DNA from: Choanephora cucurbitarum
Taxonomy: Eukaryota; Mucoromycota; Mucoromycetes; Mucorales; Choanephoraceae
Length of the DNA: 64,000 bases
Assembly: GCA_025331435.1 (NCBI GenBank)
Contig: JAIWNI010000005.1
Span: 248,001-312,000, forward strand
Reading direction: 5' to 3'
Both the position numbers and the translations under genes were made by a program. Below, piece by piece: positions 1 to 44,809 of this stretch. Positions within the stretch are counted from its first letter, which is position 1. Each line of letters opens with the position of its first letter. The notes under the pieces were generated by a model. That model was not told where the DNA came from, did no database searches, and worked only from the letters and a program-made list of their open reading frames with translations.

Positions 1-1622
1 ATCTTCATGCCATACATCTTCATCAATCACTACACTAGCACGATGACTGACCACCTTGTCCATTGTCTGACCACCACCAAGTTCAAGTTCCTTGATATGC
101 TCCTCCAGTAATTGAACCTGTTCCATATTACGGTCGCGCTCTGTTTCAAGATAGGCACAACTTTCAGCCATCAGTTTCAACTCTTCTTCTAATCGATTTC
201 TCTCTTTCAGAATTTCGCGGTTGCTTGATTCGAGCTGTTGTACTTGATCTTTATAGGAATCCATTAAGGTCTTGAAGGCCAACACTTTACGATATTCATC
301 TTCTACTTGATGACTTCTTTCAAGTAAATTTGAATTCTGGTCTTCGAGTGCTTTGATCTGTCTTTTCAAATCAGCTGACTCATCTATCTTCCGCTTGTAC
401 TTCTCAATAGCATTTTCCATCTTTTGCATCTTTTCGTAAGCATGCTTGTATTCTTCTAGTTGATCTCGTAAGACAGCAGCCTCTTCTGCCTGACCTGTCA
501 ACTCCTCTACTTTCTTTCTTAACTCGCTGATTGAAGCCAAATGTGTTTCCATCAAGGTCTCTGTCTCTTGGCGTCGATCTTCACTACGCTCTCTATGGAA
601 AACAATGTCAGTATAGACTACTGATAGGTCATAACACATACAAGTCCTGTTTCAAATGTTCGATTTCAGTTCTCATCACATAATCTGCTTTCCCTGTACT
701 GTTGGCTTGACTAATCGCTTCATCCATATCATGTAAACGTGTCTTTAGATCCTCCTTCTCAGCTAATAAATCCTCCTAGAAATTCCACAAAATTAATGGA
801 TATACTACAGACTCAATCTTTAAACTTACAAAGCGTTCACGAAGTTCGCCGTATTCTCCCAACAGTTGACTATGAGATGTCTCAAACTGCTTTTTCTCCA
901 ACAAGATCTTTTCAAATTCAAGTTGATATCGATAGGGCATGTCTTCTAACTGAAACGATTTTGTGCCTGATACTGTTGAATGACCAGAGAGATAAGAAAG
1001 TCGATTGTTACTGTTGGTGTCGGGCTCTGCATTGAAATGGCTCATGACTTCTTCAATTGAAACCATAAGCGCGTGCTGGCTCTTTTGCGTTAGACTTTGA
1101 ATCATTTCAATATATCGCTTGTTGTTATCAGATTGAACAGCAATAGCAATCACAAGCTGACACATCAGCAAGAGTTCGTGGAGGTCAGCGTCTTTAGCAA
1201 TAGCAGTTAAATTGACGTTGGGCAATAGATCAGGGTCTTGCCCGACAATGTCTTCAAAATAACGAGTGATAAGCTTATGAAGCTTCTTTTGGTTGTTGAA
1301 TCGAACAACCCAATTACTGGCTGTTTCAGTCGGTTTTATCTGCTTAAACCATTTTGCGTCGCTAAAAAGAAATTAAAGTGTTAAGCTGATCGTGATGACA
1401 AAAGACAAACAAAGAGATTACATGTCGGATAAGATGTCGGAAAGAACAACACCATCTGCTAATTCAACTACTGTGTCGATGGGATATGATTTACATTCGA
1501 AAGTGTTTATCTAAAAACGAGGCCAGGTTTGAGTCAACAGTTTAGAGAGAAAGAAGGGAAAGAAACTTTACCCATTCGACAAAAGCATCTTCCATAGCTG
1601 CTTCCATTTTTGAGAAGGTCAT
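1..1622 (-). CDS. HOOK-family microtubule cargo adaptor (N-terminal part, runs off window)
   Basis: The model has five exons: 1572-1622, 1422-1510, 830-1361, 642-775 and <1-592, all in phase, giving 466 codons before the window edge. The first ~170 residues form a Hook-type N-terminal domain (start MTFSKMEAAMEDAF, then ELADGVVLSDILSDIDAKWF and LLMCQLVIAIAVQSDNNKRY). The rest is a long charged heptad-rich coiled coil. In fungi Hook proteins link dynein/dynactin to early endosomes. The C-terminal cargo-binding part lies outside the window. An in-frame ATG at 1607 could also serve as start. Family assignment rests on the N-terminal domain plus coiled coil and is good; the cargo is inferred from the family. 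Confidence 0.85.
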
Positions 1623-1680
1623 AGGTGTAAATACAATAGTTGTTTAGGTCTATATACAAATACTTTTTTCTCTCCCTAAC

Positions 1681-1706
1681 GCACACACACACACACACAC
1701 ACACAC
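1681..1706. repeat. (AC)n microsatellite in a divergent promoter
   Basis: About 12 CA units lie in the ~570-bp head-to-head intergenic region between the HOOK and SFT2 genes. No other regulatory motif could be assigned there. Confidence 0.9.
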
Positions 1707-1897
1707 TTTAAACAGTAAAAGAGGAGAAAACGAAAAAAAAATGATATCTTCTTTTTTTTCTTTTGTCGGTGTCCCTTAATAATCTAGTTCCCTTTTTTGT
1801 AAAAATAAAAAAATCTGTTTGTTCAGAACGAGCCACTTCGGTGTTACTTAGCAATGAGTTGCATAACAACTATCCAGTTTAAGCACGATGCCAGTTG

Positions 1898-1951
1898 GTA
1901 AGTTTGTTTTCTATTTGAGCACCTGATCTACATTCTTTCTCTTTTTATCAG
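1898..1951 (+). other. Probable intron in the 5' leader of the SFT2-like gene
   Basis: The stretch begins GTAAGTTTG and ends TTTTTATCAG, which are canonical splice ends. The short ATG-led frames across it close quickly and cannot be joined in frame to the conserved SFT2 coding exons, so I read it as a 5' UTR intron with a minute upstream ORF. An unrecognised extra coding exon between 1952 and 2190 is not excluded. Confidence 0.45.
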
Positions 1952-2194
1952 TCTGACTTGGTAAAATTACATAGAAAAACAAAATCAAACAACAAAGATT
2001 ATGCAGAACTCAATGTTAGCTCAGCCTCTGATTGTTCGCGTTTATCCTACAACCCTCCCCCTTCTGGTACCTGTATTTTTCTGCTTCCGACTTGTTAATT
2101 TTCGAGATTGGCTGTACGTGCTTGTTTTTTGCCTCTTCTTTTCTACTTTCCATTTTACCTTCTATTTTCGTGAGTTTAAACTATTGACAAAACC

Positions 2195-3092
2195 ATGGCA
2201 TTCGGATTCTTTTCTTCACAATATGACGATCAAGGCACAATGGACGAAGGTATGTTGTTTGGGTGAGATTTGAAAAAAGGTGATCATCTCGGTTGACATC
2301 AGCTTCTTCAGGCAACTGGCAATTCTTCGGCCTTTCCAAAACGCAACGTCTCTATGCATTCGGTATATCGTGAGTCATGACAAACAACGATTTTTTTTCC
2401 TTCCTTTACCTTTAAGTTGTCTATGCTTAGTTGATCCTCTTTTACAGATTTATTGCTGGCACTGTTCTTTCGATTTTGGTAAGACATGAATTAAGCTTTT
2501 TTTTTTGTGGTATTAATTTCGTTTAGGCTACTATTGTCTTAATTTCAAGTGTACCTGCTTTTGCTATCCTTTACAGTCTTGGTAACGTTGTTTCCTTACT
2601 GAGGTAAAGTGAAAAGGAAAGCAATGTATTCGCTTTACTTACTTTGTATAAAAAGTTTAACTTTTATTATTGGTCTCAAGAAACAATTCAAGACCATGTT
2701 CGCACCAGGTATAAATTCTCTTGATCTGAAACAACCAATACTCCTTTAACATAACGATAATAGTTCGATTCTGGGCGACTGTCACTTACCTTGGTATGCT
2801 TGTTTTAACCATTATTCTCTCAATCACCGTAAGCAAACAAAAGAGAAGGAAATCAGCTGCTATCAGTGAACACTCAATTGCCTTTTCAATTTCTTGATTT
2901 AGCTGGCCAAGTTTTTCCTCTCACTTATACTGGTTATTATCCAATTTAGTGCCTTAGTTTGGTATTCGTAAGTCTATTGATAGCTTTGAATTCTTTTCAA
3001 CCACTCTAATAGTTTTGTTTAGCGCTAGCTATATCCCTTATGGTCGTGAGATGATTCGACGATTTTTTGGAAGCTGTATCACTTCCATCTAG
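2195..3092 (+). CDS. SFT2-family Golgi vesicle-transport membrane protein
   Basis: Eight exons (2195-2249, 2303-2369, 2448-2478, 2527-2603, 2656-2708, 2764-2828, 2903-2967, 3023-3092) join in phase to 160 aa. Four hydrophobic segments are visible: FIAGTVLSILATIVLI, then FAILYSLGNVVSLL, then a TYLGMLVLTIILSI helix, then AKFFLSLILVIIQFSALVWY followed by YIPYGREMIRRFFG. This is the SFT2/Got1-like arrangement, including the family-typical WYS.SYIP ending. SFT2 proteins act with Got1 in retrograde endosome-to-Golgi traffic. The start at 2195 is the first ATG of this frame after an in-frame stop. The gene is packed with short introns, some exons being only 31-77 nt. It ends convergent with the next gene, about 150 bp away. 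Confidence 0.85.
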
Positions 3093-3239
3093 ATGAACTG
3101 TAGCATCATTAATAGAATAATAGAAGTTTTTTTGTTTTCTTTCCTTTTTTTTTTTCTAGAATCAATAAATCTCTTTCCATTTGGTTTTGTTTAGTAAGGA
3201 AAGTACAAGTTTTAATTGCAATAGTAAATACAGAAAACA

Positions 3240-4544
3240 TTAAAGCTTTAGACCAAAAGGAAGTTCCTTTCCTTCCAAGCCTGCAATTGTGTTCTCAACG
3301 CACATGTCTCCCATAGTTTCGCGAGCTTCTACGGTAGCACTACCGATGTGAGGAAGAATAATACAGTTATTGAGCTGAAACAATGGATGATCAGTAGGGA
3401 GAGGCTCGGGCGTTGTCACATCAAGCCCGGCTCCAGCAATCAAGCCTTCCTTCAGTGCACGCACTAACACATTGTTCAGAAAACCAATCAGATATATATA
3501 TATAGAGAAAATAACAAATTTTATAAACTTACCTAGACCTTCTTGATCGACAACCCCGCCTCTTGCTGTATTAACAAAGATCTGTTCGATACAGAAATCA
3601 GTTTATAAAGAAGAATCGGGTGAACGAACTGGTACTTACTGCGTTTTTTCTCATCTTCTGGAAAGCTTGGTAATCAAACAGTTGTGTTGTTTCAGGTGTC
3701 AATGCGCAACAAGCAACAATAAAATCAGACTCCTTTAAAAGCTGATCAAAGGAAGCGAACTCAGCATGCATGGTCTTCTTAAGATCAGGCTTTTCTTGAC
3801 GCCCCCAATAGATGACACGGTCAATTCCGAATGCCTTTAAGCGATGTGCTACTGCTTGCCCAATACGACCCATACCTACAACGCCTAAAGTTCTTCCTTT
3901 GAATTGATAACCACACAACCAATTGGGCCTCCATTCTCTCCACTAAGAACAGATTAAAATAAGTACCCACTCTATTTTTTTTTCTTCATCCATGCATTCT
4001 TTTTCTCTTTTTATACCTCTCCTGAAGCTGCAGCGGAGAAACCTGACTTGAAATGTCTTGCGACAGCCAATGTTAGTAAAACTGTAAGATCAGCGGTTGC
4101 ATCTGTCAAGACATCAGGAGTGTATCCAATTTTAACTTGATTCGATTTAGCCGCTTGCAGGTCAATATGGTCATAGCCTACACTCATGGTAGAAACAACC
4201 TTCAATTGAGAGCCTATTACCATTGTTTGAGTATACGTGTGAGTTTGACCTATATGCGGCTTACCTGCAGCATCAAAAATTTCTTTATCGATTTTGTCTG
4301 AGAGCGTACAAATCAAACCATCAGCACCTTGAATATCATTTAAAAGTTTCTGACGTGGCATGGCGCTATCTTCGGGCCATTGAATCAATTCAAAGCCTTG
4401 GTTTTCAAGTCTTTTCTGGCTATTTTGTAAAAGCTTTCTCGTGGCTACCACTTTCCTAGCAGCATTTGCTACACTCGATGTATGAAAAGCACTTGATTTA
4501 ATCAAACTCTGAGTGAGGCCAAAAGGGCGGTTTGGTGCCAACAT
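3240..4544 (-). CDS. D-2-hydroxyacid dehydrogenase, glyoxylate/hydroxypyruvate reductase type
   Basis: Five exons (4265-4544, 4017-4213, 3640-3942, 3533-3581, 3240-3463) give 350 aa. The N-terminus (MLAPNRPFGLTQSLIKSSAF, rich in R/K/S and without acids) looks like a mitochondrial presequence. The NAD(P)-binding Rossmann motif is GVVGMGRIG. The catalytic Arg is in FVNTARGG, the Glu in TTPEPLP and the His in ILPHIGSAT, so the R-E-H triad is complete. Length fits the family (about 320-350). Enzymes of this branch reduce glyoxylate and hydroxypyruvate. Exact substrate cannot be settled from sequence alone; the C-terminal GLKL is not a clean peroxisomal signal. The next gene upstream, also on the minus strand, is threonine aldolase. 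Confidence 0.87.
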
Positions 4545-5069
4545 ATTTTTGTCAGGCACGATAAGAAAAAGGAAATTTAGAAAGGAAAAAAAAAGAGAAA
4601 ATTCGCCTAAAATTTAAACTTTTATCCAAAAACATCATCTGCCTACGATGTTTACAGACCCTTATGTGACATTGACATTAACTAATATAGTTCAACACTT
4701 AAGAAAAGAAGTTCATGAGTAAAACCATTTAAGGTCACGTTGGCTTGTGCTGAAAGGAAGACCCTTGAGCTAGCTAGTCTGAGTTTTCCTTATCTTTAAC
4801 AGTGTGTGTTCCAAATTGCATGAAAACATGTGCCCTCTTTAGCGTCGTTGCAAGCTAATCAAGTAAAAAAAAAGGCGGAGTGGAAAAAGGTGAATATTTG
4901 TTCCTGATTCAAATTGCATAACTTATCTGACTTTAGATTAGACAAGAAAGAGAGCAGATTTTTTGATAATTAAAGATAGGTATTATGTTTATTAGATGAA
5001 GTGTATGAATGATATAGATACAATGATGATATGAGAATGCATGAAGAACTTTACAGATGGTGGGTATAC
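4545..5069. other. Intergenic spacer upstream of the dehydrogenase
   Basis: About 525 bp of AT-rich sequence between the dehydrogenase start and the threonine aldolase stop. It presumably contains the dehydrogenase promoter. No gene, repeat or clear TATA element was recognised. Confidence 0.6.
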
Positions 5070-14310: not shown

Positions 14311-14953
14311 AGAGACTTTTGGGAGAAAATTTCATTGCCTCTAGGTTACCCTATAAGGTAATAACTCCGCTAATAGTCACGCGCTCTAAGGGCAAACCTT
14401 ATTCAATGGACCTTGCTAAGGTCCATTGAATAAGGTTTGCCCTTACGGCGGTATATGAATTCAGGCATTTCTATTGGCTGGAATTCGGTTCCGACGAGCA
14501 AAAATGAGTAAAAATGAACAAAAATCAGGATTTGAGAGAAGAAATATGTATTCCAAGTCTTTAAATCAATATATTGTTAGCATAATACTTATAAGATGCT
14601 ATTAACAAATTATACCAAGTTTTGCTGAGGAATTAGATAGTCGCATCGTATAGTAATCATTTAAGATACCATACAAAAAAATGCTAGCATTGCGTACAGA
14701 AACATCTCTAGATATAGCAGAGAAGTGAGAATGAATAACTTATAGACTTATCATAGGCAATCTATCAAATTTGAAAGCTATAAACCATTTTTTCGTATAG
14801 TTAACTATATCATTAATGCAAATTGATGTAAGACTGGTAACTGATTGATCCAAATCTTTTAAAGAGCGAAGGGCAATGATTTTTGACATTCAGCAGGTTC
14901 AAACTGCGCAACCTTTAACCGAGACATCTGAATTTTTTCTCCCAAAAGTCTCT
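14311..14953. mobile_element. 643-bp non-autonomous TIR element inserted in the mariner A TIR
   Basis: It begins AGAGACTTTTGGGAGAAAA and ends with the exact reverse complement (about 19 bp TIR). AAT flanks it on both sides (14308-14310 and 14954-14956). Mariner copy B has the uninterrupted sequence at the homologous point, with a single AAT, which proves the insertion and the 3-bp duplication (a 2-bp AT reading is equally possible). No coding capacity was seen. A 3-bp duplication would suit PIF/Harbinger-type mobilisation, but the family is not certain. Confidence 0.82.
14387..14445. repeat. Perfect 28-bp hairpin with 3-nt loop
   Basis: TAAGGGCAAACCTTATTCAA... at 14387-14414 pairs perfectly with 14418-14445, leaving only GCT as loop. 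It lies inside the 643-bp TIR element and is independent of that element's termini. Confidence 0.92.
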
Positions 14954-15061
14954 AATGTCAATGAGCGCATACCGAGATTTCAAATAGCGTATTCTCAAAA
15001 ACCAAATGGCAGACTTTCACATTCTAAAAGACGTCTCTCTTTTACTTTAAATATTTTTCAA

Positions 15062-16416
15062 ATGAGCAACACGCATAAATTCTTTATTGAGGACGGTCAG
15101 GGCAGAACAACTACGGAAGGCGGTGCAGAGGCCATGGACTACATTATCGAAGAAGGAGAGGAATTCAATCTTCGAAACTTGACTAATCTAAGTGAATATA
15201 ATGATTGTCAACCTGTTCCCATTGAGCTCGATGCCGAAGACGAGAACTTAGAGAGCAGAATATCACTTGTTACCGAAAAAAGTGAATAAGACTACTGCTG
15301 ACAAAGTTGGCAATGTTAGGAGCTACACGTCTTATACGGACGATCAGAAAACGTTGTTCCTTTACTACTTAAAAATCAATTTTTTTTTCGGCAGCTAAAG
15401 CGGCAGAGTATAGCTGGAATTGCCGAGAGAAACTGCTCAAACTTTGGCAAAACGAATCAGAACAGAACCCGGTTGGAAAATATATGAAAAGCAGACTAAC
15501 AAAAGTAGTCGGGCCATGAGTCCAGCTTCAAGAGCCACAAAAGTTACACATTCTTGAGCTTTTTGACAATAAGCCTTACACTACAACCGACGAAGTTGTA
15601 GATAGTTTAACAAAAGCTTTTGAAAGATTTACGTTGAAACAATCAACTGTCAATAGCTTCATATTACATGAGTGTAATTTGACGATCAAAAGGTTGCAAC
15701 GTCAACCTAAAGCTCGAAACGATCCTGCTCGTATCCAAGCGAGATACGATTGGGTGATGAAATACGATAGTTCAGACATGGATTTTCTTCGAAACTGCAT
15801 CTTTATTGATGAATCCGGCTTCGATATCAACATGAGGCCTTCGTATGGACGATCAGCTTCTGGTGCTCCAGCTATCGCTTCAACACCATCTGCAAAAGCT
15901 GAATCACATTCTATTTTAGGGGCAATGACTACTGTTGGGGTTGTTAATATTGAAGTACGAGTTCCTCAAATGAATGAGAGAATCAAAGTTTCTGGAGGTC
16001 GCAAAAGAAAAGCTACTGAAAGTAAAAAAGCAGGAAAAAAAGGCACTACAACAGGACATTATCTCAATTTTTTGAGAGGGACACTTGACCAGTTAGACAA
16101 ACACCCTGAACTAAAAGGCTTTTATCTCGTAATGGATAATGCACCTATCCACAACAATCAGGAAATAGAAACGCTAATCACCAGCAGAGGCTACATATGT
16201 GTATATCTTCCACCTTACTCTCCTGAGCTAAACCCCATAGAGCAATTTTGGTCGTTAGTCAAAAATAGAGTCAAACGTAGTAAATTCAACGATAAGGAAG
16301 ACTTGTTCACAAGAATTCGCGATGCTTGTAATGATATACCTCGGGATATAATAACCAAGTCAATTGAGCACTCTGTTGCAGCTTTGGAGAAGTGTAGAAA
16401 TAAACAGCCACTTTAA
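15062..16416 (+). pseudogene. Tc1/mariner-type transposase, frameshifted
   Basis: The N-terminal piece (MSNTHKFFIEDGQG..., 15062-15289) ends at a stop after a run of six A residues; dropping one A restores the frame into NVRSYTSYTDDQKTLFLYYL, the helix-turn-helix region. Further frameshifts occur between 15380 and 15540. The catalytic part from ~15570 to 16416 is open: first Asp in FIDESGF, second Asp in VMDNAPIH, Glu in SPELNPIEQFW. There are 34 residues between the second D and the E, so a DD34E signature of the DDE_3/Tc1-mariner type. A basic insertion (GGRKRKATESKKAGKKG) sits between the first and second Asp. The gene is inactive as it stands but the DDE half is intact. Confidence 0.85.
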
Positions 16417-16601: not shown

Positions 16602-19600
16602 TTAACTAAGTTTAAGGATCTTGGCGATAATCATAGCTTCAGTGAACGGAATATTCTGGCGAATAAAAGCCCAATGAGCACACCAAACGGCACGGGCAGT
16701 AGCAGCGCAAAGGCTGAGGAATTGGTTAGCGGGAACATAGGGCGGGACAGCCATTGACCAAAGGGCCGAGACAATGTGAGAAGGCCGGAAACACATAAGG
16801 GAATCGAGACCGTAGTACGAGAGACCATAGTTCCCACTTCACAGGACATGCAACCAACAGATGTTGGCGATCCTCCACAGCGGTGTTGCAAAAAGAGCAG
16901 GAAGGGGAAACCTCGGCCAAAAACTGGGCAATGGAAGCATGACAATGGATCTTATTGTAGATAATGCGATACCACATTGAGCGACATTCAGGCATCAATG
17001 ACAGCGACCAAAAGAAGCGCCATGTACGAGAGGGAAGTACGGAGGCAACCGGTTGAAGGAGGGTATCCTCCAGAGAGACACGGAAAGAGCGATTGGAAAA
17101 GTCATCCCAGAACTCAGATTGAGCCCACAAGGCATCAAATGGTTGAGTAGTGACGGGAGCGAAACTCCCAGGAGGATGCAGGATGGCGGCGAGCAGGCGA
17201 GGCTGTAGAGATAATCCAGGAGAAAGCAGCATTGATCTGAGCTTGGAACAGAGTCGAGGGAACCGCGGTTGATCCTGTGGATGTAAAGGTCGAAAGCAGT
17301 TGCGCGACTCGTCGATGGTGAAGAAGTACTTCAGAAGCAAAGGAGTAGGTCGAGAAGCGGCAATCCAATGATCGTCCGGGAGGTTGGAGAAGCCATCCGC
17401 TAGAGGAAGTTCAAGTAAGGTGGAGAGGTTGCAGTCATCCGGAATTGTCAAAGCAAGTTTAGCCAAGTATTTATCCATAAAGAAAAACAAAGCGTGGACG
17501 AAATGCCCCTGATCCAGGCCACACGATTTTCTCAGACGAGGAAAGTAGAAGGACAAGGCAGGGAAAGGAGTGTGAACAAAGAAACGGCTGATGTGGTCAG
17601 TGAGATAGCAATGGAGAATAGAACCCGTAGACGGTCTGCGCAGTTCTTTAATCCAGCGAACAAAAAGGCTACCCTGCTGAACCAAAGGGTCCAAAAGACC
17701 TAGTCCCCCTTCATCAAGTCGCTGAAAGAGTAGATCATAGCGGAAGATGGGTTTAACGCCATGGTTGATGAAGCGGCCAGTAATGCTTCGGATCTTCTTG
17801 AAGAAAGACAGCGGAAAGGAAGTCACTCGAAGGACATGCCATAATGACGCCAGAAAAATAGTATTGACAACTGTGGCTCGGCCACGTAAAGAGAGATTCC
17901 TATCTTTGAACCGGTCACACATAGTCTGGAGAGAGTCCAAGAGTTGAAGTTCCACTAATTTTCTCTGTGACAAAGAGCTGATGAGAGGAAAACCGAGGTA
18001 GCGTAAAGCTTTATGGGAAGTCCGATCATGCCAGCTGTGAATTTTAAAGGGTCCCAGTAGAGAGTGCCGTGTAGACGAAGGTCGACCACTTAAGTAAACC
18101 GCCTCAATTTTGTGCATATTCACCTTGGCATTGGATACTTGGCCGTATCTAACGAGGTGGTGTTGAAGCAAGCGGAAATCAGCTGCATTAGACAGGAAAA
18201 CGCACACATCGTCAGCATAAGCCAGGACTTTCAGAGGCTCTAGAGTTGGCGGTGAGCTGGACGAGGCAACCTGATCAAACGCAAAACCTTGAAAAGCCGA
18301 GTCCTGCAGGATATGCCGGAGAAAAGGCTCAAGGGCAAAATTGAACAGAAGAGGAGACAAAGGGTCCCCCTGGCGAAGGCCTCGAAGCTGATTTACTTCA
18401 TCTGAGAAATAGCCATTGACGTTGACACGAACCCTGTTACCAAAGAAAAGGTTCATCAAACAGTCAACCAAAAGCAACGGAAAGTTAAGACGAAGAAGGG
18501 TCCGGCGAAGGTACAGAGGGTGTACACGATCGTACGCCTTCTCTTGGTCTAACAAAAGTGCAACATCAGCTCGCTGAGTACAACGAGCGTGTTCCATTAC
18601 CATGTTAACCAGAAGGCCATTAGTTGCTATGAAACGCCCAGGCATGAATCCAGTCTGGAAGGGAGTAATCACGGACGGAGCAACGTCTTTCATTCTTGCG
18701 TTCAGTATCCTGGTGAAAATCTTAGCATCACAATTGATCAAGGAGATGGGGCGCCAATTGCGAAGTAAGGTTAAATCCCCTTTTTTGGGTAGAAGCCGAA
18801 CTCGAACATCTCGCCAAGAGGAAGGAAATAAACAACGTAACAAAGCGTCGTTGTACACCTGGACAACTAAATGCTGAAGAGGGGGGAAGCGATACAAGTG
18901 GTATAGGAAAGCATATCCAAAACCATCAGAACCGGGGCTGCTCTGTTTGGAGACAACCTTAGCGGTAACAGCAATGATATCATCAATCGTGATTGGAGCG
19001 AGCAGTGACTGATGGTCATCATCCTTGATACGAGGCATAGATGATACTTCATTGATGTATTCATCCAGCTGAGTTGGATCCACTGAATCAGCCGTGTACA
19101 ACTGCTGATAGAAGCGATTCGCCGGTACGTAACATGGAAGCAGAATCGGAACGAGACTCCTCTGTTTCGTCATCACGGAAGGCTGTTATCCTCTCTGTTG
19201 CCTGCCTTTGCTACACTAGGCACTTCAAATAGCGAACCGAAGTTTCACCCTTCTCACGCCAACGTTATCCCGATTTAAGAGCCAAAATCTCAGTGGTCTC
19301 CTGCTGGGGAATGGTAACCTCTTGCTCTAAAGGCCGCAAAAAGGTGAGACGGGCCTCTCCAGAAGGTAGGGAACGCAGGAAGTGATTTCGCTGCGACTAA
19401 AGTTCACTTAGGCGAGCCTTTCTACTTTTTGTCCGATTGACTCCAAAGCATTTGGTCACCCGCTTGAGGGCTTTTTTGAAAGAGAGCCATTGATTCGGGA
19501 GTACTGCACTTGGAAGTGGCCTCATCCAGGATAGAGGGAATGATGTCAATCAACCGGTGATGGTATTCAGGAAGCTGAAGCATGTCTCGGGTTAGCCCGC

Positions 19601-34220: not shown

Positions 34221-34322
34221 GGATGTGGTTAATGGCTCTCTAGCCGCGCTTTTATTCTCAGATAATTAATATATAAAAAAAAAAATTATTACATATTCTA
34301 TTCTTCATACCTTTCTAAGCCG
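34221..34322 (+). repeat. DIRS left inverted terminal repeat
   Basis: GGATGTGGTTAATGGCTCTC... through the stretch ending CTTTCTAAGCCG is complementary to 38289-38389. Confidence 0.9.
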
Positions 34323-34334
34323 CGCACCGTGGAA

Positions 34335-35135
34335 ATGTCAGAACAGTATGAACAACTTACACCTGAAGAAATTAGAGAATTCAGAGCACTCAAACAAAGA
34401 CTCCAAGCCCAAGAGCTTCGAGAAGAAGAAGAACGAGAACTCCCAGAAGAAGTTCACCTCGAACTGGAAGAAACTTCGAAGATTAACCTCAAAAAGAAAC
34501 TCAAACAATACCACCGAGATACAATCAAGTACGAAGGTGGAAAATGGACTCAAAGTGGGACGATCAACAAGACATATCTCCCAGAACTCAAACGCTACCA
34601 ATGCGATGCAGCGCAAATGGTGTCAGCCATCGGAAAAGGTGCTGACAGACTGCGAACAGCAGGCAGAGGCGCTACCGAGATTTTTAGCGAACTCAAATAC
34701 ATTTTCGAGGAAGGAGGAGATGAAGAAACACTTCGAGAAACCTTGGAAAAGGTTAGGCGCCTTGCAGTTTACTGTTTCGCAACAGGCAAGGAACTTGACA
34801 AAGATGCCAAAGAAGTGGCCTCAAGAGCAATTAAACTTCCAAACAGCCTCAGATACTTGGAAGAAGAAGATGATGACGAAGGGAAAGATTACTTCTTCAG
34901 TACTTCAGACATGGAGAAAATCCAAAAGACTCGATTTGAAGAATCAGTCCTCAGACAGTCAACAAAACAATTTGGAGGATTTGGACGAGGTCGAGGAAAT
35001 GGAAGAGGAAAGTACCATGGACACAACAGTTTTTTTGGGAAAGCGAAGGGCCGAGGAGGTCCATACCAGCAGACACATCGAACCACAGACACAAGCAACA
35101 ACAGCAGCCACAACAACACCAACAGCAGCAACTAA
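34335..35135 (+). CDS. DIRS ORF1, gag-like nucleic-acid-binding protein
   Basis: The ATG at 34335 opens 266 codons (MSEQYEQLTPEEIREFRALK...). The N-terminal part is highly charged and likely coiled coil. A middle segment (IKYEGGKWTQSGTINKTYLP) is followed by helical sequence, and the C-terminus is an RGG/glycine-rich region (FGRGRGNGRGKYHG) with a Thr/Asn/Ser tail. This matches the small first ORF of DIRS elements, thought to bind element RNA. It overlaps the start of the RT frame. No zinc knuckle is seen. Confidence 0.8.
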   Translation: MSEQYEQLTPEEIREFRALKQRLQAQELREEEERELPEEVHLELEETSKINLKKKLKQYHRDTIKYEGGKWTQSGTINKTYLPELKRYQCDAAQMVSAIGKGADRLRTAGRGATEIFSELKYIFEEGGDEETLRETLEKVRRLAVYCFATGKELDKDAKEVASRAIKLPNSLRYLEEEDDDEGKDYFFSTSDMEKIQKTRFEESVLRQSTKQFGGFGRGRGNGRGKYHGHNSFFGKAKGRGGPYQQTHRTTDTSNNSSHNNTNSSN

Positions 35136-35137
35136 TT

Positions 35138-37162
35138 GCAACCACAAACACAAGACAAGAAATATCCATAAACTCATCATCAAAAACAATAGAAAAGTCA
35201 AAACTAACAAAAACAATAGAAAATTCACAATTAACAAAAACAAAAGATACTCAACATTACACGATACCTCAAGATGGGATTCCACCAGGAGGTCGCTTAC
35301 AACGATTCCTTCACAATTGGAAAAACAAGATACATCATCAATGGCCCTTGTCTGTTATAGAAAAGGGTTACCAGATTCAATTCCAACATCAGCCGGTACC
35401 ATGGAAAGTAAAACCAATGAAATTGAACGAGACAGATCAATCAGCGGTGGACACAGCAGTGAGTCAGTTCTTGAAATCAGAAGTGATAGAGAGATCACCC
35501 GATCAGGACAACCGATTTCTGTCAAATTTGTTTACAATTCAGGAACCGAACAAGGTCCGACCGATTCTAGACTGCAGAAGAATCAACGAATTTGTGCAAT
35601 GTCATCACTTCAAGATGGAAGGTGTTCCGGCACTGAGAGAGATTTTAGAGGAGGAAGATTTTATGTGCAAGATAGATCTCAAGGATGCCTACATAGTTGT
35701 CCCGATTCATCCAGAGTCACGACGATTCCTATCATTCCAACACAGAGGTACAATTTACCAATACAAGTCATTGGCATTTGGTCTGAGTGTAGCACCCAGA
35801 GTCTTTTCCAAACTGATGAAATTCGCTTTGGAGCCATTGAGAGCGAGAGGAATACGATTAGTTTATTACCTCGACGATATTTGTGTTTTGACAAGAACGA
35901 AGATGGAGATGGAGAAGACAGTAAACGTCATATTAACTCATTTAACAGATCTGGGATTTATAATCAATTATCAAAAGAGCGAGTTACAGCCAAAGCACAA
36001 CCAGGAATTCTTAGGCTTCAATTTCAACAGCGTGCAGATGAAGATCAGTGTGCCTCAGAAGAAGATGAGCAAATTGATTGCGAGAGTTCGCCAATTGATG
36101 AAAGACAAAGAAAAGATGAAATCATGCAGATGGATAGCAGCCCTTCTAGGCAAGATAACATCAATAATTCCAGCTTTGGGGGAGGCATTGTTGCGAGTAC
36201 GGTTTCTACAAAGGGACTTAGCCAAGAGTTTGAAGATCCACAAGTACAATTGGGAGAGTTCTTGCAAGTTGTCGAACGACAGCTGGAAAGAATTAGCATG
36301 GTGGACAGAGAAATCGGAGCTCCACAATGGACTGATGATCAAGAGGCAGATAGAGTGTCAAGATCCAAGAGTGAGTATTTATGTGGACGCGTCGGACACA
36401 GGATGGGGGATAGCCTCCGAAATGATTCAGACAAATGGGTATTGGACAAAGGAAGAAAAAGAGACCTCGATCAATGCACGAGAACTGAAGACGATCCTGT
36501 TTGCAGTGAAATTACACGCAGAAAAATACCAAAACTCAACCATCCACATTCACACCGACAACATAACTGCACTCAAACATGCCAAGAAATCAGGAGGAAC
36601 GGCATCAGCCCTACTACAAACACTGACATTAGAAATACAACAAATCATCACAACATACAACTTACAAATACATTATTTTCATATCCAAGGAATCAAGAAT
36701 GTCCAAGCGGACAAATTGAGCAGAATTCAAAAACCGATTTACGAATGGACACTACCAAGACGATTTTTCAAGTTGATTCAACGTCGATGGAAAGTGATAA
36801 TAGATGGATTTGCAACACGAGAAAACAGACGCCTGAAGAAATTTTGGAGCCCGATGCCAGACCCCGAAGCCCTAGCTCACAACGCCTTCAACCAACAATG
36901 GCCGACAGAGGGATTGTATGCTCATCCTCCGTGGAGATTAATCCCAAAGGTACTCGAAAAGGTAAAGAAAGACAAAGTCAAATCAATGGTGTTAGTGACG
37001 CCGACGTGGCCGACTCAATTTTGGTGGCCTATGGTGATGAACATGAACAAGGGAAAAGCCTTAGAGTTCCAAATCAACAAGAAGCTGAAGCTGACCGCCT
37101 GGAGATTATCAGGCAATACAATTCAGAAGAAGAGATTTCTGAAAAAGCAAGTAGTTACTTAG
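35138..37162 (+). CDS. DIRS reverse transcriptase-RNase H polyprotein
   Basis: The open frame runs through a Gln-rich leader into GKGYQIQF-type DIRS RT sequence. Motifs: KVRPILDCRRINEF, FMCKIDLKDAYIVVPIHP, LAFGLSVAPRVFSKLM and the catalytic LVYYLDDICVL. RNase H follows with IYVDASDTGWG, NARELKTIL and IHTDNITALKH, then the DIRS/Ngaro-type C-terminal region ending with PTWPTQFWWPMV. No ATG precedes the RT core in this frame (an early non-ATG codon is at 35348), so expression probably depends on frameshifting or initiation within ORF1. The catalytic Asp residues are all present. Confidence 0.87.
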   Translation, partial: ATTNTRQEISINSSSKTIEKSKLTKTIENSQLTKTKDTQHYTIPQDGIPPGGRLQRFLHNWKNKIHHQWPLSVIEKGYQIQFQHQPVPWKVKPMKLNETDQSAVDTAVSQFLKSEVIERSPDQDNRFLSNLFTIQEPNKVRPILDCRRINEFVQCHHFKMEGVPALREILEEEDFMCKIDLKDAYIVVPIHPESRRFLSFQHRGTIYQYKSLAFGLSVAPRVFSKLMKFALEPLRARGIRLVYYLDDICVLTRTKMEMEKTVNVILTHLTDLGFIINYQKSELQPKHNQEFLGFNFNSVQMKISVPQKKMSKLIARVRQLMKDKEKMKSCRWIAALLGKITSIIPALGEALLRVRFLQRDLAKSLKIHKYNWESSCKLSNDSWKELAWWTEKSELHNGLMIKRQIECQDPRVSIYVDASDTGWGIASEMIQTNGYWTKEEKETSINARELKTILFAVKLHAEKYQNSTIHIHTDNITALKHAKKSGGTASALLQTLTLEIQQIITTYNLQIHYFHIQGIKNVQADKLSRIQKPIYEWTLPRRFFKLIQRRWKVIIDGFATRENRRLKKFWSPMPDPEALAHNAFNQQWPTEGLYAHPPWRLIPKVLEKVKKDKVKSMVLVTPTWPTQFWWPMVMNMNKGKALEFQINKKLKLTAWRLSGNTIQKKRFLKKQVVT

Positions 37163-38273
37163 ACAATGCGAACAAGAAAAGCACCCATAAACACTATGAC
37201 ATTTTGTGGCGAAAATGGGTAAAATGGTGTATGGATAAGAATCCGAAAATAAATCCTCTAGAATATAATCCAAAGGCAGTATTAGAATATCTTGTAGATC
37301 ACAACCAATTCTCCTCTCAACATTTGAATACCATGCGATCAGCAATAGCGTCCGTCTACCGAGTAACTCATCCTGACAAACCACCCATAGCATCCAACGA
37401 GAGAATAATACAATTTTTAAGGCCAAACGACGAAAGGATCCAAGATTGAGAAACAGTAACAAGGAGGTTTACTCTGTCGAGCCTGTGTTGAATATGATAC
37501 GTAATTGGGATGATGATGACAAGCTACCTTTACAAAGACTACAATTAAAGACTCTCATGTTGTTGACAATTGCTACTATGTGGAGACCACGATCGGATAT
37601 GGGTACTTTGCAATACCGAGATGTGACGTTTCAAGTAGATGATAATCATGAAATCAAGGGTGTGACTTTACTCGCAAGAAGCCCAAAGGAAATTGACTCT
37701 AAACAATCCAAGCTTGGCTTGATTGGAGAAGAAAAAGTGTGTCCTGTGAGAACGCTATGGAGGTTTGTTGACAAGACGAAGGAGTTCCGACAAAGGCTGA
37801 ACGAAGACCATACTTTGTTCTTGACTTACCTGTCCTCGGGTGACAAAGAAAAAGGGCCCGTGTCACCAAAGACAATTGGAAACTGGGTGAAGGAAGCTTT
37901 GAAAGAAGCCGGCATCAATACTGACATATATAAAGCACACTCGTTGCGAGCAGCTGCAAGCACCGAAGCAATCATCAAAGGAGCAACCTTTCAAGAAGTC
38001 AAGACGCATGGCAATTGGAGTCAAAACTCCAATACCGTAGAAGACTACTACTTCAGGCCACCTAACCAGCATGAAGCAGGAAAGCAAATGACTGAACGAA
38101 TTTTCCAATCAACGGAAAACAGAACCACATCCGAAGTCGGAGTGAGCCATACGGCAATTGTGGTAGGCACGACCCACAATGGCCAAGTTGGCGAAACGAA
38201 GACAGAGGATGTGGTGGGTACCCGCCCTTGGGCAATGCCTTGGCATTGGTTCTCCCGCCCAAAGAAGGATTGA
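37120..38273 (+). pseudogene. DIRS tyrosine recombinase, broken by a single T-run indel
   Basis: The N-terminal core-binding domain (SYLDNANKKSTHKHYDILWR ... SAIASVYRVTHPDKPPI) is in one frame and ends in a stop at 37449. The catalytic domain continues in the -1 frame: KAKRRKDPRLRNSNKEVYSV, ATMWRPRSDMG (Arg I), KAHSLRAAAS (HxxR), THGNWS and NTVEDYYFRP (Tyr nucleophile). Restoring one T in the run at 37414-37418 would join the two halves seamlessly. All catalytic residues are present. A real mutation, programmed -1 shifting or a homopolymer sequencing error are all possible. Confidence 0.83.
38125..38214. repeat. DIRS internal complementary region
   Basis: The first half (CCACATCCGAAGTCGGAGTG ... 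GACCCAC) is the reverse complement of the element's left extension. The second half (GGCCAAGTTGGCGAAACGAA ... GGATGTGG) complements the right extension, with AAT at the junction. It overlaps the recombinase 3' coding end. Confidence 0.93.
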
Positions 38274-38288
38274 AAAATTGCTTGCCTT

Positions 38289-38389
38289 GGCTTAGAAAGA
38301 TATGAAGAATAGAATATGTAATAATTTTTTTTTTTATATATTAATTATCTGAGAATAAAAGCGCGGCTAGAGAGCCATTAACCACATCC
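38289..38389 (-). repeat. DIRS right inverted terminal repeat
   Basis: Complementary to 34221-34322; runs from GGCTTAGAAAG to TTAACCACATCC. Confidence 0.9.
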
Positions 38390-39696: not shown

Positions 39697-39921
39697 ATTC
39701 ACTTTTTTCGGTAACAAGTGATATTCTGCTCTCTAAGTTCTCGTCTTCGGCATCGAGCTCAATGGGAACAGGTTGACAATCATTATATTCACTTAGATTA
39801 GTCAAGTTTCGAAGATTGAATTCCTCTCCTTCTTCGATAATGTAGTCCATGGCCTCTGCACCGCCTTCCGTAGTTGTTCTGCCCTGACCGTCCTCAATAA
39901 AGAATTTATGCGTGTTGCTCA
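39697..39921 (-). pseudogene. Transposase N-terminus of mariner copy B
   Basis: 75 codons, identical to 15062-15289 of copy A, ending at the same frameshift-induced stop (VTEKSE*). The remainder of the transposase is missing. Confidence 0.85.
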
Positions 39922-39964
39922 TTTGAAAAATATTTAAAGTAAAAGAGACGTCTTTTAGAATGTG

Positions 39965-39972
39965 AAAGTCTG
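39965..39972. repeat. 8-bp target-site duplication of the exonuclease element, left copy
   Basis: AAAGTCTG, repeated at 44679-44686. Mariner A carries this octamer once at the homologous point (complement of 15010-15017). Confidence 0.92.
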
Positions 39973-40174
39973 ACATGCCTGGGGGGAAACTCCGGTGTTA
40001 ATAACAGAATCGATTGGCCAAAGTCAACCAATCATACTTCTCATTAACACCTGTTTTTGAAATTTCGACTTCAGATATTCTGATTTCTTGTATTGCTGGA
40101 AAAGAATGCATTTTATTTATACTTTACTTTTCATTTTTTTTTGTTCTGCTTGCTTAGATTTCCTGTTACCAATC

Positions 40175-43100
40175 ATGAAAAGCAATCAAAAGCACAAGAT
40201 AACTAAGAGTTCTGCTAGACAGTTTAATACTGGTAGATTCTCTGCCACCAGAGGTTTTGACAGTAGTCAGCAATCGATCCAGAATGCTTTCAATCGCATT
40301 CAAAACAATGTAAACTTGCCATCAGCATCACAAGCCGTGAATTTTTCTGTAGAAGAAGTAGTATGTAGAATGAACCTGCAATAGTTTTGATATTTGAGCT
40401 AAATTCATATGTAAATATTTGAACAGGTCACCGACTATTCAGAGGGTGGCGTTATTAGTACTGGTTTGACAACTGAAGAACAAGAGCATGAGCAGAACGA
40501 ACAAGTTGAAGCAGAAGATTTCGAAGAAGATCTTGAAGAAGATACCGAGGAATTTATTTCTGACAGTTTGCCCGAAGAAAGTGTTATTTCACTTTACTTG
40601 GAGAGTATCCAAAACAGACTCTCTCAGGAAGATTATCCCTCAGAATATGCAAGAGGTACTTTCTGGATAGAGCCCATGATGCCCTTTTTTATGCTTAAGA
40701 AAAACAAGAAAGTCGAATCCCTTTATCACCCCCGAGTATTTCTGTGGATTCCTCACTTGTTGCTTAGCGAAGGGCTTGCTGCAATTCACTGTCCTTGTTG
40801 CAAATCAAAAATGGAGACTAAAGGATTCAATAAACAGCCTCATGCAAGAAGAATTGTTGATATTGATAGGTAAGATGCAGATTATCTTTTTTTTTTTCAT
40901 TTTCTTTTAACACATTCTTTTCTAGCTGCTTCTACCTTATGTCAATGAGATATAGATGTTTATCGTCTGGTTGTGGAAAAACGATCAACGCTCATGATAG
41001 TCAAGTTATCAAACAGCTACCCTATGAGCTTCAGTTTGAATTCCCTGCTATCTTGACACACAGAGGAGGCGTCTCTAAGATGGTTGCTGACTTGTTAAGA
41101 CCATGCATTCAAAATTCTGTTGGACCTGAGCGTTTTCAGAAAATTCTTGTTGAATTGCACCATCTTCGTCATGATCGCATAGAACTTCAGTATTTGCTTT
41201 CTGTTTACAGAAAAAGAAGCGGTGCTGCAAGATACTTTCTTAACTCTGAGCCTGATGTTTTTTCTTCTTTTGAGAATCAGATGCAATATGCAGGATTTGT
41301 GCCTTCGGGCACATATGTTCGTACTTTGTACACTGCTATTATTCAGACTCTTAGACCAAAGATGGATAAGCACATGATGCTTTTAGATGGAAAGATCTTG
41401 AAAGGAGATCATTCTTTTAAGTTTCCCAAGCACATGGCAAAAATCAACGAAGCTAGTGTCTTTACTGCACTCTATACAGTAACGAATGAATATGAAGAGA
41501 TAGTGCAACAAATGCTGGTGCCTTCAAAAGCATTGAGTTATCTTCGCTTTTCCTTTGAGAAAATGCGTGAGGGCTATTCTTTGTATGGCCATGAAATGCC
41601 AATTGCTTTCTTTACAGATAATGTAAAAGGTGATAAAAATTTCTTGGAGGGCGTTTTTGAATCTTTAAAACATCAAGTGCAACCCTTACCATACATTGTT
41701 GCTTCTTCTGTTGACGAAGACTCTGATTTTTTGAAGTTGCCTGAAACTGTCGAAGCTGTCTATGTTGCTCGTGATTATGATGCTATCAATAAGCATTTCA
41801 GACAGCTTCTTGAGGATTTGAAGAACGATGAAGATTGGACTGTTGGGTTTGATGCTGAATGGGTACCCTTCTCTGCTGGAAATAAGGTGGATGTTGTTCA
41901 AGTAGCCTACAAGAACAAGGTATTGGTAATCCACTTGGATCAGTCGTGGCAGGAATTGCCTCCTTATTTCCAAGCATTTCTGAGAGATGCAACTATCAGG
42001 AAGGTGGGAAGGCAAGTGGGCGGCGATCTCGGTAGAATCAATCGAGGTTACCACCTTATGTGTCGCGGCGCTCTTGAGCTTGGCTCCTTTTGTTCTGCAA
42101 GGAAATGCATTCCAAATGGCCAAATGTCTTTGACCGAAATTGCGTTCAAAGTTCTTGGAATGAAGATCAAGAAAGATGAGCGACTTTCTGACTGGAGTGT
42201 TTCACCTTTGTCTGCCCAACTAATTGAGTATGCTGCCATCGATGCTTGGGCAAGCATGGCTATATACAGTGCTGTAAGAGACAAACCTGAGATTGGTACT
42301 AGAATTAGTTCTAGAAACTGTCTTCCAGGTGTTTGTGTAGCTTACAAGCCTAGGCAAGCAAAGAGTGTAGTTGCGCTTGGTAAAGTTTGCAGTGACATCA
42401 CTAATCAAGGTGTAGTCATGGTAAGCATACTACATGTTAAGCTCCCAGGATTTCTTTTTTCTTTGAACTCAGGTACAATCGCTGAAAACCCAAGGCCTCT
42501 CAACTCTTTTGGTGCAGTTCCCTTTGAATTGAGTATACCGATGAAAGACCTTGTAACAGTAGCCGAGCAAGATGTAGAATGCATAGATGGATCTGGTAAT
42601 AACGAGCAAAATCTCACAGCCTCCTTTCAGCAAAGCGTTGATGTTCAATCCGCAAGCGATCGGAGTGCTACAGATAGTGAGGTTGAGGAAGCTTTTGCGG
42701 TTATGTTTGGAGAAGACACGGCGATGGTAGACAAAGAAAGCTTTTCTACTGGCTATAAAGCCTTTCTGAATGCTAATTTAAGCCCAAGCTATAATGATGA
42801 AGTCGATACCACCATAGTTCGGACAAGAGTAGTAAAAGACATATTCCACTTAATGGACATGATCAAGCCTTACAAAAAGCACACTCTCTACAAAGAATTT
42901 ACTCGTAGATTCAGTGACAGCCTTTTTGTTTTGAATGAGGAAGATAAGAGAGTTGTTGCAGAAGCACTCGAAAACAATGGATCTTCATGGGAAGTAAAGA
43001 TGAAGTATGACAGATCCTGGATCATGAAGCGTGTTAGAAGAAAAGTTCCTGCTCCTGAGCAGTTGTTGCCGCTGTTGAAATCTTTGTTTTTGTCTTTTGG

Positions 43101-44493
43101 ACCACTGAAGTGCTCGAAGTCTGCAAGACCTTTGTTTGACAAGCTTTCTTGGAAACAGGCTTTAAGTGTTCTCAGAACTGTAGAGTTAGGGCACGCCTCT
43201 GATCCCCCAGGAGTTCAGCTCTATTTCGAGACTGGCAAAAAAGACAGACTTGGCCTTACTTTGTATAGATGTGTAAGAGGCACTAACTCCCTTGAGGGTG
43301 GTGTCCATCAAAATTTAATTCGAAAGTTTGGCTCGTTTGGAGCAGGACCTGCATTGGCAGATGCCATGTTGACGGAATATCGACTGCGCCATAATATTGA
43401 CGTTGGAACTGCCAATCGATGCAGCCGTCTTCATAAAGGTCACTATGATCCATGGCTAGTTCAACACATTCAATTTTTAAGAAGCAAGCTCGGTATCAAT
43501 GGTTGTAAGCAACATATATCTGTCGATATTAATGCTTTGCATTACCAAGGTTCAAAAGAAGTTTTTGGAATTTGTCCATTTCCTGAAGATGAAATGAGAA
43601 AGCTTGGCATTGAAAGTAGCAATGGTAATACGGTTGCTTCTGGACTTTCTGATTTGACCATTCCAAAGATAGAAGATACTGTGCATCTATCTGTCAGTTC
43701 AACAAGTCGTCCGATAAATGCCAGATACACTTACGTTGCTCATGCTCAAAGGACCAGATTTGCTGTTATTGCGGTGCATACACTAGAAGAGTTGTTCCTG
43801 TTTTCTCGGCTGTACAACGAGCAGTTTTTAAATGTTCATAGCCCTGATTTTCAGAAATTTGCTTCCATCTGGAATGCTCATGCAAATGGTGAGAACATTT
43901 TCTACAAAACGCCAGAGCATTTGGAGAAGCACTTTGGCCACTGGAAAGAGCAGGAAGCGGCCAAGAAAACCAATAGCATTCATTATGGTATCATTGAGTC
44001 GTTTATGACTGAACAAAGATCTGTAAATGCACCTAGGCAGACTGAACAAGCTCGTGTACCTAGCCTTCCTATGACAGTAGGTAATGTCATGCTACCTGAG
44101 TCACCGTTGATCATGCCTGCCCCAACTTCTGTTCCTCCTGCTGTTGTGTTTCCTTTCGAAACACAAAACATACCTTTTGCTTTTAGCATACCACGCATGC
44201 AAATTCTTCAACAACATCCTGTAATATCAAGCTCAGTTCCACGAGTACTGCAGCCCAATATCCACAGAACTGCTGATGTGAGAACATCCAATTTGGCAGC
44301 AGTAGCAACAGTAGTAAGACCATCTAACATTACAATAGATGTGGCTAAGCGAAGATCATGCAAAGGCTGTGGATCTCACACTTGTCCCGGCAAAATCAAC
44401 AGAAAGCGGTGCCTTTTTCCAATATGCTTGAAATGCAAAAAAGAGAAAGACTGCGACGGATTGTTCGATCCAAGCAAGTGCAGTACTACATAA
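40175..44493 (+). CDS. ~1,398-aa transposon protein: zinc domain, DDE-like core and inserted 3'-5' exonuclease
   Basis: Exons 40175-40360, 40427-40869 and 40926-44493 join in phase. An acidic stretch lies at ~75-100. A DUF6729-like zinc region follows at ~130-260: FWIEPMMPFFM, then CPCC and, after an intron, YLMSMRYRCLSSGC. Next is an RNase H-like core with LLDGKILKGDHSFKF (~360) and IAFFTDNVKGD (~440). A WRN/RNase D-type exonuclease occupies ~510-660: WTVGFDAEW, VGGDLGRI, LSDWS and YAAIDAWAS, so DEDDy residues are present. At ~995 comes RGTNSLEGGVHQNLIRKFG, where the Glu may complete a D-D-E triad. The C-terminus has a Cys cluster (CKGCGSHTC...CLKCKKEKDC). A host gene with an exonuclease is the alternative, but the 8-bp duplication supports a transposon protein. 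Confidence 0.82.
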
Positions 44494-44516
44494 AGCATTA
44501 TGAATAAATTTCTTTT

Positions 44517-44610
44517 CATTTCTCTTTCTCTTTCTTTCTCTCTTTCTTTCTTTCTTTCTCTCTTTCTCTCTTTCTTTCTCTCTTTCTTTCTCTCTTTCTT
44601 TTTTCCTTCT
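44517..44610. repeat. Pyrimidine tract (TTTC/CTTT)n
   Basis: About 95 bp composed almost only of CTTT/CTCT units, in the 3' UTR of the exonuclease-element gene. Confidence 0.9.
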
Positions 44611-44678
44611 TTTTATTTTTCAAAATTACTAAATTTGGAAATTGAGTTTTGTATCCCCCCAGACATGGCATACGAGCC

Positions 44679-44686
44679 AAAGTCTG
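44679..44686. repeat. 8-bp target-site duplication of the exonuclease element, right copy
   Basis: AAAGTCTG; see 39965-39972. Confidence 0.92.
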
Positions 44687-44809
44687 CCATTTGGTTTTTG
44701 AGAATACGCTATTTGAAATTTCGGTATGCAGCTCATTGACATTTTATTTTACATCAATTGGATTTTTGGAAACCGCCATTTGGGACCGTAAGCACTGTAT
44801 AATAAATAA

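Follow-up and report, generated by a model that had tools for sequence, protein, structure and literature searches.

Is a gene that joins transposase motifs to those of an exonuclease part of a mobile element and, if so, of what kind? The question is raised by positions 39973–44678 of a 64,000-nucleotide stretch of the genome of the fungus Choanephora cucurbitarum (contig JAIWNI010000005.1, positions 248,001–312,000, forward strand; hereafter the window). A first-pass annotation had taken this segment for a DNA transposon whose protein carries a WRN/RNase D-like exonuclease inserted into a DDE transposase. That interpretation holds as far as the predicted architecture is concerned but the layout is not new, having already been described for Dada elements in the available part of PMC3706591. 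We consider the segment to be an autonomous DNA transposon of an exonuclease-bearing, Dada-like branch that has recently been active in its fungal host, and put the probability of this at roughly three in four.

Copies of the element

The segment is a genuine and recently mobile DNA transposon.

39973–44678, + strand: transposon, window copy, its left end short of the outermost 10 bp

A nucleotide search of this genome (33.4 Mb in 357 contigs, the window being C303:248001–312000) returned 48 matches to the element, degenerate pieces included. Besides the window copy, full-length copies are found on contigs C164, C73 and C57, and a copy on C201 spans bases 1–4561 of the 4706. The window copy differs from the other three full-length copies by 8–18 substitutions over ~4.67 kb, plus 40–51 gap columns; pairwise comparison among all four gives 7–19 differences per 4,665–4,677 aligned bases, with 0–51 gap columns. 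Near-identity of these four copies points to recent movement, and the near-identical copies sit, with defined ends, at unrelated sites with unrelated flanks.

Target site duplication and empty site

The perfect 8-bp duplication seen in the first-pass annotation is present at both flanks of the window copy, and an empty counterpart of the insertion site lies elsewhere in the window.

39965–39972, + strand: left target site duplication, AAAGTCTG; single copy at six empty sister sites (AAAGTCTG at one, GAAGTCTG at five)
44679–44686, + strand: right target site duplication, AAAGTCTG, a perfect match to the left copy
14960–15140, − strand: transposon-free sister of the host repeat (empty site), with AAAGTCTG once, at 15010–15017

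By itself AAAGTCTG is not rare (4 matches in the window against 3.99 expected) and the frequency of the 8-mer alone is not decisive; the duplication is genuine because the empty site carries one AAAGTCTG. Joined with a single AAAGTCTG, the flanks align without gaps over the junction to window positions 14850–15140 (minus strand), and they also align to five other repeat copies that read GAAGTCTG at the junction, giving six empty sister sites with one copy each (AAAGTCTG in one, GAAGTCTG in five). The sister repeat (15006–15408) is 99.3% identical over 403 bp to the repeat hosting the window copy. That host (39780–39972 and 44679–44803) is another, multicopy repeat: its left flank has 16 genome matches, itself included, and pieces of the right flank occur in many places.

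That the locus is instead a WRN/RNase D-type host gene, as the annotation of one homologue (P0041) as Werner helicase-like might suggest, is already refuted by the empty sister site and is contradicted by the near-identical copies at unrelated sites; we give it next to no weight.

Reading the element as GGC…GCC, the duplication is 8/8 in the window copy and in C57 (CATTACTA) and 7/8 in C164 (GTTTTTTT/GTTTTTCT). C73 has 7 bp, TTTTTTG, inside a T-run, which does not fit an 8-bp frame, and no duplication was found at the ends of C201. We also examined ten copies (the window copy left out) using 8-mers anchored on GG[CT] and [AG]CC. C57 gave an exact duplication and C164 one with a single mismatch, both at the true ends; C201, C70, C6, C290, C157, C2 and C279 had none at their true ends, and in several older copies among the ten an end could not be placed. 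No common motif was seen by eye at four rejoined target sites.

Ends of the element

The short, imperfect, G-rich inverted ends that had been proposed are genuine.

39973–39990, + strand: remnant of the left terminal inverted repeat, ACATGCCTGGGGGGAAAC, outside which intact copies have GGCGGACCTG
44651–44678, + strand: right terminal inverted repeat, ending in CATACGAGCC

The C164, C73, C57 and C201 copies start with GGCGGACCTGACATGCC, and these and the window copy finish with CATACGAGCC. The two ends match as inverted repeats at 20/28 positions in C164, a value never attained when one end was shuffled 200,000 times, and at 19/28 in C57.

None of the C164, C73, C57 and C201 left ends is shortened, the first three starting with GGCGGACCTG, 10 bp outside the start of the window copy. 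The window copy is without this outermost decamer, and its perfect duplication directly adjoins the shortened end. Since the duplication and the missing decamer each end in CTG, a later deletion between the CTG repeats would explain the shortening. Trimming before insertion would yield the identical sequence, the CTG match then being a coincidence of ~1 in 64.

Gene structure and transposase core

Splicing out two predicted introns gives a protein of exactly 1,398 amino acids. The length of the gene first described, ~1,398 amino acids, is therefore right, but its course is interrupted twice.

40175–40360, + strand: exon 1, residues 1–62; the N-terminus is similar in homologue P0002 by eye
40361–40426, + strand: intron 1 (predicted), GTATGT…CAG
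40427–40869, + strand: exon 2, first half of the DUF6729 zinc region (C184, C187)
40870–40925, + strand: intron 2 (predicted), GTAAGA…TAG, splitting PF20499 between profile positions 101 and 113
40926–44493, + strand: exon 3, remainder of the protein, with the stop at 44491–44493

A third candidate intron, at 42421–42472, was rejected: homologues align across it and splicing destroys the frame.

Three overlapping protein searches (22, 13 and 60 matches) yielded 92 homologues, with the nearest annotated proteins in Parasitella and Mucor. The second and third searches scored just those candidates with the most shared words, and the homologue counts are therefore lower bounds. All 92 were aligned, and residue counts are given over the sequences with a residue in the column.

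41407–41409, + strand: predicted catalytic Asp 1, D371 (GDHSFK); D in 90/90; strand 153–159 of the open reading frame (ORF) model
41617–41619, + strand: predicted catalytic Asp 2, D441 (FFTDN); D in 91/91; adjoins strand 223–226 of the ORF model
42838–42849, + strand: DxxH, D848–H851, where the core resumes; D in 81/85, H in 83/85
43294–43296, + strand: predicted catalytic Glu, E1000 (RGTNSLEGG); E in 73/73; helix 783–797 of the ORF model
44359–44481, + strand: C-terminal cysteine knuckles, C1355–C1395, CX2CX4CX8C and CX2CX5CX8C

With D371, D441, the DxxH at 848–851 and E1000 all intact, the protein is predicted to be an IS256-like DDE transposase, DDE chemistry being predicted because of the conserved residues and the fold. 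Of the 89 rows containing both D371 and D441, 81 show a spacing of exactly 70 residues. The second Asp in FFTDN and the late Glu motif had been correctly picked out in the first-pass annotation; its first Asp, in LLDG, has to be moved to GDHSFK, the LLDG position holding D in 14/89 homologues against 90/90 at D371.

Four N-terminal cysteines (C184, C187, C221 and C226) lie in the order CX2C…CX4C and are conserved in 71/73, 72/72, 76/77 and, for that alignment column, just 9/61 homologues, respectively. DUF6729 is matched in two exon pieces at 25.2 and 24.8 bits, slightly below the cut-off of 27, and at 31.2 bits for one piece in a six-frame genome search. A literature search found no paper on DUF6729.

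In structural comparison the DDE core is closest to an IS256-type structure, ISCth4, and the modelled core has the RNase H-like fold with C/DxxH and a helical insertion that mark IS256 transposases. ISCth4 is an IS256-family element with a D1–D2 spacing of 66 (70 here) and the same C/DxxH, and its 8-bp A/T-rich duplications suit the 8-bp, mostly A/T-rich ones found here; it differs in being bacterial and only 1,503 bp long, and the available part of its description does not mention an exonuclease (PMC7780238).

The P element and Hermes, a hAT transposase, also appeared in the structural search; in both types an insertion precedes the E helix of the RNase H core, and a DxxH-type motif is present. 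Their duplications are ~8 bp, and DxxH and long duplications are common to hAT, P and Mutator-type elements (PMC3706591, available part). These likenesses might suggest a transposase of KDZ, hAT or Mutator type that gained its exonuclease independently. We regard this as improbable given that the best structural match is of IS256 type and that no Pfam transposase match was obtained at E ≤ 0.5 (two window pieces, six homologues) or E ≤ 1 (five homologues), bearing in mind that the lack of a library match does not exclude membership. The exonuclease is, moreover, inserted at a different point from the helical insertion of hAT transposases. A term search for 'exonuclease' gave no match in a paper on TET/JBP transposons with KDZ (PMC12730594).

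The inserted exonuclease

Between D441 and the DxxH motif lies a predicted WRN-type DEDDy exonuclease, a placement that agrees with, and makes more precise, the earlier proposal of an insertion between the second Asp and the Glu.

41752–42279, + strand: inserted DEDDy 3′–5′ exonuclease (predicted), with D519 and E521 (FDAEW), D577, Y645 and D649
42319–42573, + strand: small beta-rich region after the exonuclease; strands 466–540 of the ORF model

The region matches Pfam DNA_pol_A_exo1 (E = 2e-14), and FDAEW, VGGDLG, YAAIDAW, FFTDN and RGTNSLE, the motifs on which the earlier proposal was built, are all found in the 1,398-amino-acid translation. Like the DEDDy exonucleases of the WRN/RNase D group it has D, E, D and Y…D in ExoI–III on a DnaQ-like fold; unlike them, it is set within a transposase. 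The exonuclease is strongly conserved, with D519 in 85/90, E521 in 85/90, D577 in 86/88, Y645 in 85/89 and D649 in 87/89, and all five residues are found together in 76 of the 92 homologues. P0016 and P0091 are gapped at all four acidic positions, and the other 14 have at least one of the four missing or changed, some being fragments. Two distant relatives, P0033 (exonuclease below the Pfam cut-off) and P0034 (unmatched), retain D, E, D and D nonetheless.

Selection was assessed by comparison with the relative on C70, which itself carries stops, as nonsynonymous/synonymous differences per site, the synonymous values being saturated. The first half of the core gives 0.073/0.668, the DxxH–E part 0.138/0.740, the exonuclease 0.172/0.757, the DUF6729 part 0.174/0.734, the C-terminal part 0.362/0.837 and the beta region 0.421/0.802. 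The exonuclease has thus been under slightly looser constraint than the core and under far tighter constraint than the adjoining beta region.

Homologues with a named host come from Mucorales, Agaricomycetes and diatoms. A midpoint-rooted tree without support values, built from the 80 sequences of >900 amino acids among the 93 (window protein included; labels of unnamed proteins are our assignment), places Mucorales, Agaricomycetes and diatom/environmental sequences in separate groups and puts P0022 and P0092 close to the root. On the simplest reading of this grouping, the exonuclease would predate the split of these element lineages.

Relationship to Dada

A directed literature search for exonuclease insertions in fungal transposases found no paper; Dada surfaced separately, and only one paper with Dada as its subject, judged by title and abstract, was found (Kojima and Jurka 2013; PMC3706591). 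In the available part of that paper, Dada elements encode a DDE transposase with DxxH and distant similarity to MuDR, hAT, P, Kolobok and IS256, and in those of Laccaria and Ectocarpus a DEDDy exonuclease separates the second D from DxxH. The view that no characterised transposon has this layout must consequently be abandoned. The carriers are Dada-1_LB and Dada-2_LB (Laccaria bicolor) and Dada-1_ES (Ectocarpus siliculosus), whose names bear no target label.

The likeness to the window element is extensive. Here too DxxH follows the second D, and an intact DEDDy exonuclease sits between the two as in the Laccaria and Ectocarpus elements; the introns, the length (4666–10979 bp for complete Dada elements) and the presence of a C-terminal cysteine region are also alike. 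Both have an N-terminal four-cysteine region, with different spacing (CX2C…CX4C here, CX4C…CX2C in the zinc finger of Dada-U6_DR), and the spacings of D567, D635 and E811 and of C389–C432 in Dada-U6_DR are near those found here.

Several points weigh against our assignment. Dada has a C-terminal CX2CX9HX8C in place of two all-cysteine CX2CX4–5CX8C knuckles; its duplications are 6–7 bp and not 8 bp; its U6 and U1 families are without terminal inverted repeats, whereas imperfect ones (20/28) are present here; and it targets small nuclear RNA (snRNA) and transfer RNA (tRNA) genes (PMC3706591, available part), whereas no small RNA gene was detected at the sites tested here. The case for homology to Dada is built on layout, spacing and host distribution, the comparison having been with published descriptions and not by alignment. 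The structure models are of low overall confidence (pTM 0.45 and 0.44), and the P0016 model behind the ISCth4 match possibly derives from an erroneous gene annotation. In the anchored test 8 of the 10 copies showed no duplication, and both nuclease activities are predicted from sequence.

As to targets, five copies searched together with their flanks gave nothing with ARAGORN and nothing in Rfam at E ≤ 0.1, and the window gave no Rfam match at gathering scores; no tRNA was found at the four rejoined sites, other split RNA genes not having been searched for at the C164, C73 and C57 sites. Every Dada with clearly definable termini sits in a small RNA gene (PMC3706591, available part). The exonuclease-bearing elements could accordingly be a separate superfamily, the sister of Dada, marked by inverted repeats, duplications of 8 bp and insertion without targeting, a possibility in keeping with the ends and duplications described above and with the absence of target labels in the names of the Laccaria and Ectocarpus carriers. 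We think this doubtful, given that the exonuclease insertion point and the core spacings agree with those described for Dada and that the exonuclease-bearing elements were grouped into Dada by sequence (PMC3706591, available part). The window element is most likely a Dada-like variant of the exonuclease-bearing branch, and is called Dada-like rather than Dada because defining Dada features fail here; it is not a proven Dada member. Taken together, these results suggest that strict small-RNA-gene targeting is not a trait of the whole group.

Possible role of the exonuclease

In the mechanism that we envisage, the N-terminal Cys4 and C-terminal cysteine regions would bind the element ends, and the RNase H core, of IS256/P/hAT-like type and split into halves past the helix following D441, would nick the GGC…GCC ends and join their 3′-OH groups to target phosphates spaced 8 bp apart. 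The inserted exonuclease, beside the active site, might trim cleaved transposon or donor ends, removing 3′ overhangs or flanking nucleotides, and so let joining or repair go ahead. Movement could be by cut-and-paste or by IS256-type copy-out/paste-in. The odds that the exonuclease does trim 3′ ends during transposition are, we infer, about even.

Alternatively, the exonuclease may be a passenger of no use in transposition, degrading transcripts or silencing RNAs, for example. RNases are found among the DEDDy relatives (RNase D, Rrp6, Nibbler and NrnC), and nuclease passengers are known in other transposons. Academ, with an XPG nuclease, and ISL2EU, with a YqaJ exonuclease, are transposons with an additional nuclease, and differ from the present element in nuclease family, architecture and duplications. 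We consider a passenger role unlikely. More speculatively, and with only slightly better prospects, the fungal and diatom exonuclease-bearing transposases might be one old lineage apart from small-RNA-gene-targeting Dada, in which the built-in 3′–5′ exonuclease is obligatory and sets the final end length; the window copy, starting 10 bp inside with a perfect duplication, would then record over-trimming before insertion.

If trimming does occur, the combination of transposase and 3′ trimming in one protein would be unusual in mechanistic terms. The available part of PMC3706591 covers the exonuclease in one short paragraph, without termini, targets or duplications of its carriers; the genome studied here offers recent copies that are nearly identical, precisely defined ends and an empty sister site, and makes its role in transposition directly testable.

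Neighbouring repeats

A second multicopy family has a similar terminus, GGCAAGACTGTCATGTCYGGGG, variable in some ends, with its junction at GGC. It is represented by loci L055 (C60:43810 on) and L056 (C268:93807 on), and matches with the same left end occur on C336, C257, C212, C347, C79, C299, C112, C325, C113, C3, C20, C12, C4, C47 and C316. Its fragmented minus-strand ORFs have, by eye, a TnpB/Fanzor-like zinc end (PF07282, E = 0.036, below the cut-off), and Fanzor elements of unclear class have been described in Mucor (PMC3627910, available part). This family might be a passenger mobilised by the transposase described here; its right end and duplications were looked for and not found, and because the right end was not found we make no claim of mobilisation.

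Inverted duplicated segments of 99.2–99.9% identity lie between ~15 and 40 kb of the window (15006–15408/39576–39976, 22895–24059/38416–39579 and 24070–25876/31669–33480). Positions 34221–38389 are likely to be a tyrosine-recombinase retrotransposon (reverse transcriptase PF00078, Phage_integrase PF00589) with 101-bp inverted ends of 99% identity, and at 15520–16413 and 16729–19185 a Tc1/mariner-type transposase (PF13358) adjoins a LINE-like reverse transcriptase with zf-RVT.

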